Source of the DNA: Ehretia macrophylla
Taxonomy: Eukaryota; Streptophyta; Magnoliopsida; Boraginales; Ehretiaceae
Direction: 5' to 3'
Assembly (NCBI GenBank): GCA_037974665.1
Contig: CM075770.1
Location: forward strand, 95,042,850-95,106,849
Length of the DNA stretch: 64,000 nt
The notes beneath the pieces were generated by a model. That model was not told the DNA's origin. It saw only the letters and a program-made list of their open reading frames with translations, and did no database searches. Shown in pieces: positions 2,316 through 62,993 of this stretch; the first letter of the stretch is position 1; each line of letters starts with the position of its first letter. A program made the translations under genes and the position numbers.

Positions 2316-4980
2316 ATATCTAGGATAGTGGTGCTTAGAGATTTATAACATATTTACACCAAAAATTTATTCAACAATAAAGGTATGTACAACTCTTTTT
2401 CGTTTTTCTTTTTTTTTTCATTTTTTTCTTTGTTGTTTTTTTTTTCTTTTTCTTTTTCTTCTTTTTTTCAGAGTGTACATACAGATAGAATAACATAACA
2501 TACTATACAGACATGGCACAAGGGTTCAGGTTTCAATCACAAGGAGTTCTCATAACAAACGGTAATCCTATCTTAGTCCTTTCATAATCACAAACCTATC
2601 AATTGAAGAACAGAAGAACAACTAGGTTTACTCATGAATACAGTACTCCAAAGTTTTTCTTACAGAGTTCCCTCAGAGTTTTTCATAATACATAGCTAAC
2701 AAAACAGGTTCTCAAATCATCTAAATCATCATTTTTAAACAGGTAAGGTAGCAGACTACTCTTCTCATAAATAAAAATGGTGTATTTCTTGCATATTTTG
2801 AAAAAGGTTTTCATGAATGTACACACCCCCACACCAAAACTTTGCTTGTCCTCAAACAAATAGCAATGTAAAAGAGTGAGAGTATAATATGCAAGTAATA
2901 ACATAATGACAAATGCTACATCCCCAAACCTATGGTTTTCTTACTCTATAGCGCAGGTTGATCAGGTATAAAGGGGAATGTAGTAAGGAAAGATATCACC
3001 TGATGTGAAGCATTTCTATGTTGATGTCAAAGCTTTTCTACTAACTTTTGTCAAAAGATGTATCATTCTGCAATTAAAGATTAGTGGAAAAAGCATTTTA
3101 TAGATTATCATCAACATAACAAAAATAGTTAGCTATACTATATAGACAAAACAAATCTACAGGGGAGAAACCAAAAAGAAATATGGTCATGGAAAATAAC
3201 TAATATATTAAGTAAATAATTTAACTACCCAGACCATTTAACCTCTTTTCTGGGGTTTAAGAGTTAATTAAACAAACATTAAAACATTTAAAAGAACACT
3301 AGGTTGCCTCTTAGTAGCGTTAAGTTTATTGTCATTAGCCAGACTACAAAAATCACTCAAACAGAAAAGAATTCTACTCAGACATAATAAATACGAGTTT
3401 ATACAAATAAAAGAGAGTCAAGAAATGCTCCCCCATATTGACGAACGCGTATTTTTGAACTCCAAGTCTGAACAGAAATTCCATAGCTATTCGGGCAGAG
3501 CTTCCCCCCGAATAAGAGCTATTTTTGAGCAAAGGCTCAAAAATGAACGTTAGGATGTCCGCTGTACAGTAGCTATTCAGGCAGAATGCCCCTGAATAAG
3601 AGCCACTAGGCAGGACTTCCTCCGTATATAGCTATTTAGGCAAAATCCTAAATAAGAACTATAAAAATAACTTGACAAAAATTAAAAATATTGGAAAAAT
3701 ATTCCAAAGCTCTCAAAAATTGTGAGAAAATATGAAGAGGGTTGATGTCTATTTATAGGAAAACTTGGCTACTATTCACGCAGGTACTATTCACGTGACT
3801 ACTATTCACGCAGTTACTTTTCACATGACTACTATTCATGCGATTACTATTCACGTATTCTGCACACAGTTCTACTGTTCACGCATTGAACATCACTATT
3901 CACGCATTGACCAATACTATTCACTCGTTGACCAAAAAGTTGACCAATGCTATTCCAAGTTTATTCGGCATTCTGAGTCCGTTTCTGCATTTCGTTTGGT
4001 CAAATTCTTCCTCTACGGGCTTCAATTCTTGGTCAACACTTGAGTTTGTCTTTGACTTTGACCAATTCGTTGACCGCAACATCTTCAGCGTTTTTCACTG
4101 TTTTGACCCTCCAAACGATAGAATTTGACTAAAATCACACCACCCACAGGACAAAGGTCCTGTGTTTTGCTCAGACTGTTGTTTCTACCTGAAAAACGAA
4201 TATGGTTTGCCAAAAACGGACATGGGTCACTATTTGAGATCATCTGGGTCAATGCTCTGAGTCCAATTTCGTGCTAGTTTCAGCCAAATTTCTTCTCTAT
4301 GAGCTTCATTCTTCAATCGCTTCTCGTGCTTTCGCATTCTTGACTTCTTGACTTGTAATTTGGATCATTTTGGGTCTGATTTTTCACTTTTCTGTATCAT
4401 CCTACATTGCATCAAAAATATCAAAGTATTGCAATAATTCCCAAATTAGGATGCAAATATAGAACAAATACCAAGGTTTGAGTGCTGCAAATACAGTCAT
4501 ATCAACATCCCCAAACCTAAACCTTGCTTGCCCTCAGGCAAGACTGTCTTTAAAATAGATGTGAAAATAGATTTTGCAGAATTTTTACAAGTCAAAAATA
4601 GATGAAGTAATCTATCCTATCTTTTTGTCAAACACTTTCCAAATCTGAAACATGAGAAATGCAATCTACTATCTTAAACATATTCAGCAATTAATGATAA
4701 ACATGATAGGAGAACTTTGTACATAGTTTTCACAAATAGGTACTCTTATTGGAAATCGACTATTGATTGCTTCGAAGTACATATTTAGAAGTAAACTAAG
4801 CAAATTAAGTTCATTCAATTCCTAACTTTCAAGTTATGCAAACAGATTGGACCTTGATATTCTTACCTACATTTGTAATCAAACTCTTGATCATGCCTTA
4901 ACCCTTTAACATTTGCCAGAAATATAAAAATACAACTAATAATACCTCTATATAATGTTCAGTTTCCTTTGCTTTCTGAA

Positions 4981-8148: not shown

Positions 8149-10040
8149 TGATGCAATCGGGTTGTACGTTAAAATGTGCACAAAATAACTAAGTTAAAAT
8201 ACCCGCAAGTGCACGGATCTTTGTAGTGTAGTGTGCTCTGAGTGCGGAATCGTACCACAGGAAAGCTTGCTAGTTTAAGTTAGTGAAGTAGTGTGAAAGT
8301 GTTAAAACGCTTAAGTGACAAATTGCAAGGTAGGTTTGAGTAACGAGTAAAAATATAAACTAAAAGCTAAGGTTTTCGTTTAGCTAAGTACGGAAGAATA
8401 TCTAGGGATCAAATATGTAAATAAGGCAATTAATATAGGCTCGGTATCCGGATTCTCAAATTCTATACAAGAGGTTAAGCTACAAGCATTAACCTAGTCA
8501 ATTATCTTAGTCTATTAAAATCCCGATTACTAACTCTGATGTAGGTGCCGTTCCATCTACGAGCGTATAGCCATAGTATGGATCTGTCCTTGCAACCTGG
8601 TGTAAAAGGTCTGTTTCAACATAAGTAATCAACATCTCCTTACTAGTCTAGAAACTATGGTTTACTTAAAAGCATTACCTATAATTTCTTGGAATCTTTA
8701 AGGTTGTCAAGCTATTGACTCACTATTAAAGCATGGATATATGACACGAAAATAAAGCAATCATATCATCTACTTAAAAGCATTATGTATGAAAGACAAT
8801 ACTTAATTAATACAAGTCATATATTGCATTAAAACTAAATTATCCGAATCCGAGACCATATATTAAAAGACCATTATTTACAATATCCTACCCTAGATAA
8901 GAAATCTACTCAGACATAATAAATACGAGTTTATACAAATAAAAGAGAGTCAAGAAAGGCTCCCCCGTATTGACGAACGAGTATTTCTGAACTCCAGGTC
9001 TGAACAGAAATTCTATAGCTATTCGGGCAGAACTTCCCCCCGAATAAGAGCTATTTTTGAGCAAAGACTCAAAAATGAACGTTAGGATGTCAGCTGTACA
9101 GTAGCTATTCGGGCAGAATGCCCCCGAATAAGAGCCACTAGGCAGGACTTCCTTCGTATATAGCTATTTAGGCAAAATTCTAAATAAAAACTATAAAATT
9201 AACTTGACAAAAATTGAAAATATTGGAAAAATATTCCAAAGCTCTCAAAAATTGTGTGAAAAAATGAAGAGGGGTGATGTCTATTTATAGGAAAATTTAG
9301 CTACTATTCACGCGGGTACTATTCACGCAATTACTATTTACTCGACTACTATTCCCGCGGTTACTATTTACGCGATTACTATTCACGTATTCTGCATGCA
9401 GTTTTACTATTCACGCGTTGACCATCACTATTCACGCGTTGACCGATACTATTCACCCATTGACCAAAAAGTTGACCAATGCTATTCCAAGTTTATTCGG
9501 CATTCTGAGTCCATTTTCGCATTCCGTTTGGCCAAATTCTTCCTCTACGGGCTTCAATTCTTGGTCAACACTTGAGTTTGTCTTTGACTTTGACCGGTTC
9601 GTTGACCGCAACATTTTTGGATATTTTTCACTGTTTTAACCCTCCAAACGATGGAATTTGGCTAAAATCACGCCACCTACAGGACAATAGTCCTGTGTTT
9701 TGCTCAGACTATTGTTTCTACTCGAAAAACGGATATGGTTTGCCAAAAAGGGACATGGATCACTATTTGAGATCATCTGGGTCAATGCTCTGAATCCAAT
9801 TTCGTGCTAGTTTCAGCCAAATTTCTTCTCTATGAGCTTCATTCTTCAACCGCTTCTCGTGCTTCCCTATTCTTGACTTCTTCACTTGTAATTTGGATCA
9901 TTTTGAGTCTGATTTTCCACTTTTCGTTATCATCCTATATTGCATCGAAAATATAAAAATATTACAATAATTCCCAAATTAAGATGCAAATATAGTACAA
10001 ATACCAAGGTTTGAGTGCTGCAAATACAGTCACATCAACA
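8149..10040 (-). repeat. 5' LTR of the LARD-like element (1892 bp)
   Basis: On the plus strand it starts TGATGCAATCGG and ends GTCACATCAACA, giving TG...CA ends on the minus strand. It contains the TACTATTCACG minisatellite (9301-9462) and a minus-strand TATA box near 9283-9296. Beyond 10040 the sequence changes to the leader of a Tekay/Del-like element. Confidence 0.87.
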
Positions 10041-41302: not shown

Positions 41303-43623
41303 TGTCACGCCCCAACTCGACCCCACTTATGATCAGTCAGGACATAACAGAATTTCGACAATATAACGTCTGTAATATGAACATCAGGGCTCTAAACCAA
41401 CCCTTTATAACATCACACAACCAACTCCAAATTTCAACAACAACTCCATAACCATTCATCAACATTCAACACAACACATTAAACAACCATACACCATACC
41501 AACCACAAGACATATGCCTCCGTTTCAACAATATACTACAAGCTATACTATACATATGCATACTTGATATAAAACTAGACTAGCAACCTACTCATAATCC
41601 AAAGTAAGACAACTAAACTAGTATTATACTTTCAACATTCAACACAACACATTAAACAACCATACACCATACCAACCACAAGACATATGCCTCCGTTTCA
41701 ACAATATACTACAAGCTATACTATACATATGCATACTTGATATAAAACTAGACTAGCAACCTACTCATAATCCAAAGTAAGACAACTAAACTAGTATTAT
41801 ACTTTTCTCTATCTTTATAACATCTTATACAATACAAACTTCAAAGTAAATACAATACTACTTGTTCTACTATACAAGACAGCAAAAAGATAACTCCAAC
41901 CAAGACATCATGGATAAGACTATGGCACATATGACTCTGGCACATTCTCAACCAACTTCTTGTAACTCCTATAATACATACCAGAGGTACCTCATCTAGC
42001 CCCTTCTTCTATGGCATCTCTGCCCATGCGAGCTGGGGATAATATATGATAGTCATGCCGTTATCAACCTGACAGCCCAACACTACTCGAGAGGTGGCAT
42101 ACACTATCAAGACTCATGACAATAATAATAAACATTCATATTCTGAGAAGACAACAAAGTAGGTTGTCCTCCAGAGCAACATCAATCATCAATTAGTTAA
42201 CAACACTTCAATCAATATAACATCAATTAAACAACTAAGACAACTAAGTTCGATGACAAAATAGGCCACCCAACTTATCACACATTTCAACATGCATTCA
42301 ATCCCAAACCTACTCAACAACAATCCCAGAAACAGCTACACAAACACTACCAAACAACTAAAGACAACATTTAAGCATTTTAAAGAAAGACCACACAAAC
42401 TTCTAAAAATTCATAACTTATAATCTAGAAACTCAATAACCTCCAAACCACTTCCTATCACTCAACCATCAATGCAAGTACAATAGCCCCATCTTAAACC
42501 AACCAAAAGCCACCGAAAACAAGACCAACAAGCCCAAAAATGGCAATGTACACTAGGCTGAATTTTCGGACTTTTGCTATGGCATTCAAATTGAAAATTC
42601 GGCTTTACAACACTACTACACAATAATTAACAAGCCTATAAAAGCAACTACAATCCAATTCGAACTACTATAACAACATTTATTCAACTATAAGCCAAAT
42701 AATCAACTTAAATACCCAGAAAATAAAAATACAGGCTACAACCGTTTAAAATGGCTATAAATACATATAAATGGTCCTTAACATATACTAAGCAATAATC
42801 TAAGGCAATTTAACAAATCATCCAGTAAATATGCAACAATAAAAATTTGACATGAATTCTCATTTCTATATCTAAATTTTTCTCTCACTTTTGATCCGAA
42901 GTAAAGCTAGAAATGCGAAGAATAGATGCCCAACAAGCGGAATCTAACCCGGAATGAAAAGCTTTGGCCTAAAAATGAGATTTCTAAGAGAAAATTACTT
43001 TGAAAAATCGTGAAAATATTCTCTCTTCTTCTCCCTAAACCTCACGGCAATGTGTGTGTGTTTGTGTGGTGTTTTGTTTTGTTTTATTGTGTGTTGATAA
43101 CTTATAAGCAAAAGTCAAAGCAAGCTTCAAGGTCAAAGTTGTTAACTTAAGTTATTTTAGTTGTTTTTTTGCCAACAATAGGAATATAAATACTATATAA
43201 CTAATACTATAATTATTAGGACTATATTTTAGTTGACAACTTATATATGTAAGTATATGTAAGTATATATTTATATATAATTAAGATATAATACTTATTT
43301 TGCAAAAGAAGATGAAAAATCCTTTTAAATTCCTAATTCGTTTCAAAATCAGTTTTAATCAAACACGGGTCTATTAATATTCAAGGACTAGGTTTTCAAA
43401 CGTTTAAAAGGCCAGTTTCAAAATTTTAACGAACGTATTCTTCAAATACTATTCACAAATAGCAACGATAAAATTTTCAATGCAGATTTTTATGAAAATT
43501 TCATCAAGGCTCACATATCATGTAATAGAAGTAGAATCACAAAATTAGCACATTTTAATTCAAATAACACAAATACAAGTCAAAACACGCAATTTCATAC
43601 AAGGAGAAATTTGGGGTTTCACA
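41303..43623 (-). repeat. 3' LTR of the Tekay/Del-like element (2321 bp)
   Basis: Starts TGTCACGCCCCAACTCG and ends GGGGTTTCACA, the complement giving TGTGAAACC...GGGGCGTGACA. The right edge directly adjoins the polypurine tract. The body contains a perfect-looking 173-bp tandem duplication. Confidence 0.87.
41461..41806. repeat. 173-bp tandem duplication in the Tekay/Del-like LTR
   Basis: Unit 1 is 41461-41633 and unit 2 is 41634-41806. Both start AACATTCAACACAACAC and end AGTATTATACTTT-like. By eye I see no difference between them, so the duplication is very recent relative to the LTR. Confidence 0.9.
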
Positions 43624-61099: not shown

Positions 61100-62993
61100 T
61101 CACCTCCAATTAGCGATATGATCACGATACATGTGCTAACATTGCAGTTGCAGCTTGGTGAGACAATTCTTCAACATGATTGTTATATCTTGATAATATT
61201 GTACATACAAAGGGCTCATGGTCTCTCATTCTCTAAATAATGCATCACTTAGTCTCCATTTACGAATATAATTATGAATGACATAACATGCAATAACTAT
61301 AAGACGTTGTCTAGTATGTCTATAAGTTGGCATCAATTTTTATATTAGAAAACGTACCTTCAGCACTCCGAAACAAGGTCCAATCACCATTCCTAATAAA
61401 GAATGCTTATAATTAAATAAGAGGAAATTGGACAAATAGTCCCCATTGTTTATAAATTTTGGACAAATAGTCCCTATTGTTTCACAAGTCATTCAGTTAG
61501 TCCTCATTGTTTGCAAAAGTCCCACAAATAGTCCTATTGTTTGTAAAAGTCCCACAATTAGTCCCCATTGTTTACAAAAGTCACTCAATCAGTCCCTATT
61601 GTTTGCAAAAGTCACTCAATCAGTCCCCATTGTTTGCAAAAGTTACTCAATTAGTCTCCAATGTTTGTAACCCTAAACATTGGAGACTAATTGAGTGACT
61701 TTTGCAAACAATGGGGACTGATTGAGTGACTTTTGCAAACAATGGGGACTAATTGTGGGACTTTTGCAAATAATAGGGACTATTTGTGGGACTTTTGTAA
61801 ACAATGGGGACTAACTGAATGACTTGTGAAACAATAGAGACTATTTGTCCAAAATTTATAAACAATGGGGACTATTTGTCAAAAATTTGTAAACAATAGG
61901 GACTATTTGTAAGATTTGCCCATTAAATAACTCTAGCATTCTAAGGTTCGCAACGACGACCATTATATTCTTGAGTATGATATCTCTCTCTTCTAAAAGG
62001 TGGAAGAAATCCTCCTGTGTAGGGATATTCAGAATCGACAAGATAATATTTACCTACAAAAAGTGAGATGATAATCAAATTAATAAACTAGTTGTCATAT
62101 CAATATAACTAAATCAAATAAAATCTCTAATGGAAATATTGAAGTACCTTCACTAGGCCACAAAAAGTTTGTTTCTTTCCATAAAAGTGCATCCAGAAAA
62201 ACACTTGAATCATTAGCACTACCTTCTTATCTTAAGTAAACATAAGTAAACATCATATCAAAATCACAAGCATGCATAACATTCTGTGTCACAATACTCT
62301 TTCTCTCTCTACAAGCTGTTTGTTTCGTTGTTGGAACCCATGTACTTAAATGTGTATCATCAATAGCCCCAAGATAATTCTAACATGTGAAAAATTAAAA
62401 ATGATTTTTTTTTTTTTGAAATTGAAATAACAACAACGTACCATATTGAATATATTAATTGAAAATATATCTATTTCCTTAAACCATGGATAATATATAG
62501 GGTTTTTTTATATGGTCTAGAACCTTAGAGGATTGTTGCCTTATAATCTCATTTCCAAGCTTACATATTATTCTTATGGTTTCCTTGCAATGTTGAGAAA
62601 CAATTTGAGTTGAATGTTGAAAATGACATGTCACAACTCTTTGTCGAGTGTTGTGTCCTAAAATAAACAAAGTCATAGCAATATTTTATTCTAATAGTAC
62701 ATCTCTTGAATCACCTAAACAATTACGTCTTCTTAAATCATCACAAAATGCGAGAAACATGTTTTGTCCATACGAAACAGTTCATAGCAAACTTTAGGTG
62801 ATCCATCCAATAATTCGCTAATAAATTCACGACCTGTTAATGAATAGGTCCTCATTCAATTTTTGATCAAGAATGACTTCTCATTCTCAAGTATCATATT
62901 AACTATTAATAATTCACCCAATTTATCATATGTGGAGTCCGAAGAAGAACTTTCCAGGCTATCAATCCCCGTATCTGATGAACTTTCATCCAT
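61100..62993 (-). pseudogene. PIF/Harbinger DDE transposase (HARBI1-like)
   Basis: Starts MDESSSDTGIDSLESSSSDS at 62993. Then ELLDGSPKVCYELFRMDKTC (about 62770-62830), the helix-turn-helix-containing part FQHSTQIVSQHCKETIRIIC (about 62560-62620), and the nuclease domain IGAIDDTHLSTWVPTTKQTA (about 62310-62370, first Asp) with EGSANDSSVFLDALL (about 62180-62230, second Asp). After the insertion come YYLVDSEYPYTGGFLPPFR (about 61990-62045) and FGVLKVRFLI (about 61350-61375). The conserved Glu of the VIERxFG motif appears as Gly (VIGPCFG). The end RDHIANWR-stop is near 61100. Frames are also shifted and interrupted by stops, and the 501-bp fold-back element splits the gene, so it is inactive. 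Confidence 0.9.
61421..61921. mobile_element. Fold-back Mutator-like MITE, 9-bp target duplication
   Basis: ATTAAATAA flanks both ends (61412-61420 and 61922-61930). Almost the whole 501 bp is one inverted repeat: the arms are about 61421-61667 and 61678-61921, with a short loop at GTAACCCTAAA. Within each arm a 30- to 33-bp unit (AGTCCCCATTGTTTGCAAAA then GTCACTCAATC) is tandemly repeated about seven times. The 9-bp duplication suits Mutator-like mobilisation. Interrupts the PIF/Harbinger transposase. Confidence 0.93.

Follow-up and report, generated by a model that had tools for sequence, protein, structure and literature searches.

Fold-back transposons with long palindromic ends are known from plants, FARE1 of Arabidopsis reportedly having been described by Windsor and Waddell in 2000. 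A paper on the Medicago truncatula element MuTAnT presents FARE1 as a fold-back element with long palindromic ends that is now classed as a MULE, and its authors place MuTAnT itself beside Jittery and FARE1 (PMC4486113). That paper describes MuTAnT as a 292-bp fold-back MULE whose arms are 144 bp long and whose insertions are flanked by 9-nt duplications, and counts 218 related elements (PMC4486113). For Tm1 of the nematode Meloidogyne, the report describes terminal repeats that consist largely of tandem units, most often of 14 bp, and duplications that are mostly 9 bp long (PMC3169594). The maize locus Mu killer is an inverted repeat derived from Mutator and has been proposed to silence the master element MuDR through hairpin RNA (PMC3440606).

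Here we analyze a 64,000-nucleotide stretch of Ehretia macrophylla DNA (the window; contig CM075770.1) in which positions 61421-61921 are very probably one copy of a multi-copy, non-coding, fold-back, MULE-derived, MITE-like family that inserted into a pre-existing copy of a PIF/Harbinger-like transposase. The features of the locus, with the evidence for each, are as follows:

61421..61921, plus strand: very probable fold-back MULE-type MITE, whole element of 501 bp (genome copies with common ends; fold energy)
61421..61667, plus strand: left arm, about eight tandem 31-bp units with the consensus CAATTAGTCCCCATTGTTTGCAAAAGTCACT (repeat analysis)
61668..61673, no strand: 6-nt loop at the centre of the palindrome (minimum-energy fold)
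61674..61921, minus strand: right arm, about eight inverted 31-bp units (repeat analysis)
61412..61420, no strand: left 9-bp target-site duplication ATTAAATAA (identical to 61922-61930; a single site in 7 of 7 fetched relatives)
61922..61930, no strand: right 9-bp target-site duplication ATTAAATAA (identical to 61412-61420)
61340..62855, minus strand: degraded sequence of a PIF/Harbinger-like transposase, split by the element (DDE_Tnp_4, PF13359, E 6.6e-7, joined fragments)

A sequence-only reading of this DNA had proposed a near-perfect 501-bp fold-back inside a transposase gene, with arms that pair when folded and are themselves tandem arrays. The fold-back is real and lies far beyond chance: the predicted RNA fold of 61421-61921 has an energy of -355.2 kcal/mol, compared with a mean of -112.5 (sd 5.8) for shuffled sequences (z -41.8), and its minimum-energy structure contains 211 cross-arm base pairs around the 6-nt loop. 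The arms do pair, none of 100 shuffles folding as well, and each arm is an array about 247 bp long, with some eight units at a period of 30-31 bp. Pairing slips by one unit between the arms of this copy, such that the paired blocks 61428-61534/61777-61883 (96%) and 61533-61666/61675-61808 (91%) lie about 30 bp out of mutual register. This slip accounts for the number of cross-arm pairs, and it leaves the terminal 31 bases on the right (61891-61921) outside the main stem, with no left-arm partner in the structure of lowest energy. Further, the third unit from the end of the right arm carries sequence of the left-arm type, an arrangement found in 4 of 105 copies from the genome (99 are typical and 2 unclear). 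The element contains no CG dinucleotides, where 15.8 would be expected; because a single CG-poor unit is repeated about 16 times, this absence does not amount to a series of independent facts, and CG sites are present in one subfamily consensus.

The placement inside a transposase gene was likewise confirmed. When six minus-strand fragments surrounding the element were joined with X, they matched DDE_Tnp_4 (PF13359) with an E value of 6.6e-7 and 29.5 bits, above the cut-off of 24.8; none of 10 transposase fragments scanned singly against Pfam reached a family cut-off. We take DDE_Tnp_4 to be a marker of PIF/Harbinger-like elements. The transposase copy is degraded by stops and frame changes, and the genome contains 40 matches to its right half, of which 39 lie at other loci: the element's host gene is itself mobile DNA, now degraded. 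All seven of the transposase relatives that were fetched run through the insertion point with a single TTAAATAA, the first base of the 9-bp site differing in these relatives from that in the window, and two bases beside the junction are present in the relatives and absent from the window. Because the relatives are uninterrupted at the insertion point, the element is younger than the spread of the PIF copies. Insertion into the already existing PIF/Harbinger-like copy duplicated 9 bp of the target.

Other repeats occur elsewhere in the window. At 974-1125, 3768-3935 and 9302-9466, a 15-bp unit around CTACTATTCACG forms arrays that resemble one another; each of the three is followed by a 21-bp array, and the spacings are 2.8 and 5.5 kb. 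A two-copy tandem duplication of 173 bp with 100% matches occupies 41459-41805.

We searched the genome (1.58 Gb, 20 contigs) for copies of the element and found at least 39 others of near-full length, with 91-94% identity to 61421-61921, a count that is a floor, as 40 of 2,202 first-look candidates were scored. Genome copies align across all 501 bases, and the borders of the element are exact. A 23-bp pattern of the left terminus, with at most one mismatch allowed, has 292 matches in the genome (158 forward and 134 reverse), whereas the same pattern reversed, as a control, has 0 in either orientation. The copies are dispersed and have common ends, as is the case for fold-back MULEs, and at these same ends the 9-bp duplications differ from copy to copy. 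Among the 40 aligned copies (the window copy included), the nine flanking bases match exactly in 28 and with at most one mismatch in 34; by contrast, a shifted control of 1,040 comparisons gave 0 exact matches and 1 with a single mismatch. Mismatches between the flanks number one in 6 copies, two or three in 3 and six or seven in 3. The exact duplications, 28 in number, are rich in A and T: the first base is T in 20 and the last is A in 24. The search that the sequence-only reading had suggested, for other copies with 9-bp duplications, is positive, and the Mutator-type mobilisation that it had read from one duplication is now well supported by the dozens of copies in which a 9-bp duplication borders the same ends, and by the empty sites.

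Among the 100 terminus matches listed, 29 fall in copies of this first set, and the other 71 were fetched as a second set. A right end with a duplication (at most two mismatches) was found at 65 of these 71 loci, in 57 of them exactly, a result that is not an independent test because the end was chosen partly by the duplication. Six of the 71 are without a right end plus duplication. At L113, L133 and L145 the right terminus is present with no matching duplication, L078 is a diverged copy, and the remaining two, L101 and L110, have a single arm. Two loci 45 kb apart, L046 and L047 (C2:17943452 and C2:17898714), have identical 15 flanking bases on both sides, so that a single segmental duplication seems likelier here than a pair of insertions.

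Apart from an autonomous relative carrying a mudrA-like transposase between such ends, the defining features tested are present in the family: it is marked by the 9-bp duplication, by long inverted repeats, by dispersed copies and by an empty site. The terminal inverted repeats make up nearly the whole element, as expected of a fold-back MULE or Mutator MITE. The best-supported reading is that the element is non-autonomous and is mobilised by a MULE transposase supplied in trans; we infer this partner, for which the two element ends would be the recognition sites. Among 1,321 candidate MULE loci, 150 were scored and the best 30 examined, and no arm sequence was found within 1.5 kb on either side of these 30 MULE-domain loci (best E 0.36), a distance beyond which the ends of a long element could lie.

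How does this family compare with the described systems? This family and MuTAnT are alike in being short plant elements that consist almost entirely of terminal inverted repeat, form a hairpin, generate 9-nt duplications and have modular arms (PMC4486113). They differ in that the 292-bp MuTAnT has 144-bp arms and TA-microsatellite targets, whereas the element here is 500 bp long with about eight 31-bp units per arm and AT-rich targets; and MuTAnT, unlike this family, has a known putative autonomous partner (PMC4486113). Tm1 offers a further likeness, namely terminal inverted repeats made mostly of tandem units that vary in number, mostly 9-bp duplications and MITE-like members, but Tm1 has a nematode host, its units measure 13-15 bp, many of its members contain internal sequence and a member bearing a transposase is known (PMC3169594). 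FARE1 is alike, by its description in the MuTAnT paper, in being a plant fold-back with long palindromic ends (PMC4486113). Mu killer is similarly an inverted repeat from Mutator and a proposed source of hairpin RNA; it is, however, one locus, which contains transposase sequence and has a hairpin of roughly 4 kb, whereas here we find a small mobile family in which no coding sequence was recognised (PMC3440606).

The sequence-only reading had called the tandem-within-palindrome structure unusual. As a claim to novelty this is not supported, since tandem-unit inverted repeats are found together with 9-bp duplications in Tm1, while MuTAnT and FARE1 both belong to the fold-back MULEs; because MuTAnT, FARE and Tm1 have been described with the fold-back MULE form, the architecture is already known in kind. 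The sequence of the family itself was not found in the literature with one 11-base string from the unit, a result of little weight because most repeat libraries are not papers. A paper on Galileo raises the possibility that the tandem units within terminal repeats give the transposase secondary binding sites (PMC3573991), and by analogy such binding is a plausible reason for the 31-bp units.

The arms are stacks of the 31-bp unit in which the number of units changes by both gain and loss. In the 65 copies of the second set for which ends were assigned (one end, that of L135, is poor), length classes fall near 404, 435, 467, 500 and 530 bp: 27 copies measure 495-500 bp, 11 measure 465-469 bp, 5 measure 430-437 bp, 3 measure 526-531 bp and 2 measure 402-406 bp, with 17 of other lengths. 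The steps of 31 bp between these classes show gain and loss of whole units. The uniform length of the first 40 copies is partly due to selection, since they were picked for their likeness to the window copy. Overall, 67 of 105 copies are of standard length (493-501 bp). Position 4 served to divide these 67 into subfamilies, with G in 36 copies and C in 30; the 1 copy with another base was dropped from the within-subfamily counts. The two subfamily consensus sequences are distinguished by 11 positions, of which position 4 follows from the way the copies were split. Six of the 11 are complementary partners between the two arms: 116/384 and 233/267 pair in the main register, and 75/394 pair once the register is shifted by one unit.

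Some copies depart from this simple form. L106 with L021 (C7:2424689-2426157), L079 and L089 are head-to-tail or nested copies within one 9-bp duplication, 744-937 bp long, and may have moved as units; because L106 (869 bp) contains L021, the latter is counted twice among the 105 copies. Further, L101 (C6:21503723-21505123) and L110 (C7:20311383-20312783) each have one arm, which runs as far as the palindrome centre and gives way there to unrelated sequence, an arrangement that could reflect breakage at the centre or insertion into the loop. The arm of L110 is identical to a subfamily consensus over 248 bp. An initial reading of these two as possible long parents was not accepted, though either may be one. 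In L101, the 280 bp beyond the arm are a dispersed repeat of its own (40 of 425 candidates scored), and none of the listed places of this repeat, compared by eye with the terminus matches listed on C1-C16, coincides with such a match except its own. The sequence beyond the arm of L110 (from about 791, plus strand) is coding-like with no Pfam match at E 0.1, and may resemble plant pararetrovirus movement proteins.

Changes within the family bear on whether the arms copy each other. In the inner arms (141-246), complementary double changes within subfamilies number 19 versus 9.9 expected in one and 38 versus 14.7 in the other, and a shuffle test, which ignores relatedness, reached these counts in 0 of 2,000 shuffles in either subfamily. 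By contrast, the outer arms show no excess (2 versus 3.6 and 14 versus 11.3). C-to-T changes are very common among the copies; when C-to-T and G-to-A types are set aside, the inner pairs (112-246) are changed in 7 copies versus 3.3 expected and 26 versus 8.8, and the outer pairs in 0 copies versus 0.07 and 4 versus 0.69. Because the outer pairs of this kind exceed expectation in one subfamily, an excess confined to the inner arms is not a clean result. Partners slid by -31, again without C-to-T and G-to-A, gave 1 and 2 copies in the two subfamilies.

We also mapped these changes onto a 66-copy tree, from which one of the duplicated pair had been left out; because it was built from the whole element, the tree is not independent of the pairs tested. 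For all change types there are 22 complementary changes in which both partners change on the same branch, versus a mean of 13.1, a modest excess reached in 34 of 3,000 permutations, and without C-to-T and G-to-A there are 7 versus 1.7, reached in 5 of 3,000. The outer arms give 10 versus 9.0 for all types, which is no excess, and 2 versus 0.56 without C-to-T and G-to-A. Partners slid by eight offsets yielded no joint changes of this rarer kind on the tree, slides by 1-3 giving only weak control, since complementary slid positions are few there (16-34 pairs). Together, this moderate excess of complementary changes lends moderate support to arm-to-arm copying as the likely process in the family, with selection on the hairpin, rather than copying, as the alternative explanation of the complementary changes. 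We hold only tentatively, and think it rather doubtful, that the palindrome is actively kept, part of one arm templating the rewriting of the other, so that concerted arms maintain a strong hairpin that feeds small RNAs against the family. Such rewriting would proceed by gene conversion or fold-back copying, perhaps upon extrusion of the hairpin in replication or transposition. A literature search on homogenisation of MULE arms or concerted evolution of palindromes, judged by title and the start of the abstract, found none.

In its predicted fold, a transcript of the element has the capacity to form a long duplex, and read-through transcription would be expected to give duplex RNA of about 210 bp. 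By analogy with other plant MITEs, the most likely fate of this duplex would be processing by DCL3-type enzymes to 24-nt siRNAs, with silencing of the family as the result. The sequence-only reading had proposed that such a hairpin could yield phased or 24-nt small RNAs. According to a review, DCL3 generates 24-nt siRNAs, independently of RDR2, from the arms of the stem in transcripts of plant MITEs (PMC10004981), and on the precedent of plant MITEs a hairpin-RNA/DICER role for the element is plausible. An Rfam scan of the element reported 19 matches with E values of 0.1 or lower, all of them below their gathering scores; the best, MIR821, scored 88.4 bits versus a gathering score of 249, and the sub-threshold matches are mostly miRNA precursors, as expected of any long hairpin.

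Among the copies, C-to-T changes affect 6.55% of C and G-to-A changes 6.45% of G, compared with at most 1.05% for the others. We considered this excess as a footprint of siRNA-directed methylation, using 8 PIF copies as a control, and the idea fails: the CHH rate is the same in the family (754/11,539; 6.53%) and the PIF control (77/1,170; 6.58%), and the control is higher in both CHG (14.4% versus 9.0%) and CG (19.6% versus 0.8%, or 1/120). Because the PIF copies have the same CHH rate, the C-to-T excess is no proof of RNA-directed methylation.

Might this instead be a locus dedicated to hairpin RNA (siRNA or miRNA), maintained for the sake of that RNA and, like Mu killer, silencing MULE ends in trans? 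The very stable fold of the copy at 61421-61921, the folding of 67 of 67 standard-length copies at -289 to -371 kcal/mol and the excess of complementary arm changes would all fit, as would the proposal that Mu killer is a hairpin source acting against MuDR (PMC3440606). However, any young palindrome is expected to fold strongly, no Rfam family scored above its gathering score, and the element is one among hundreds of dispersed copies, has its own target duplication and sits within a dead transposon; we therefore regard such a locus as very unlikely. To a local inverted duplication or an assembly artefact, as opposed to a transposon, we give almost no credence. Palindromes are prone to assembly trouble, but the 500-bp unit recurs elsewhere with other flanks and other 9-bp duplications, and relatives of the host sequence have empty sites; copies with differing flanks, together with these empty sites, refute this explanation.

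The class of the element is a separate matter. No other flowering-plant superfamily is known to make 9-bp duplications commonly. Membership of another DNA transposon superfamily, with duplications of 8-10 bp, would be in keeping with the 30 loci among which no MULE partner with matching arms was seen, but it is highly improbable given that the nine flanking bases are exact in 28 of 40 copies and that a length of 9 nt is described in the MuTAnT paper as typical for MULEs (PMC4486113).

We thus return to a fold-back family that is very probably MULE-derived. Beyond its value as a data set, this family is fairly ordinary plant mobile DNA. It adds to a 1.58 Gb plant genome a large fold-back MULE group with a clean 31-bp modular arm and, because hundreds of copies are available, it provides a natural data set on how transposon palindromes change, one suited to the gain and loss of units, to copying from arm to arm and possibly to breakage at the centre.
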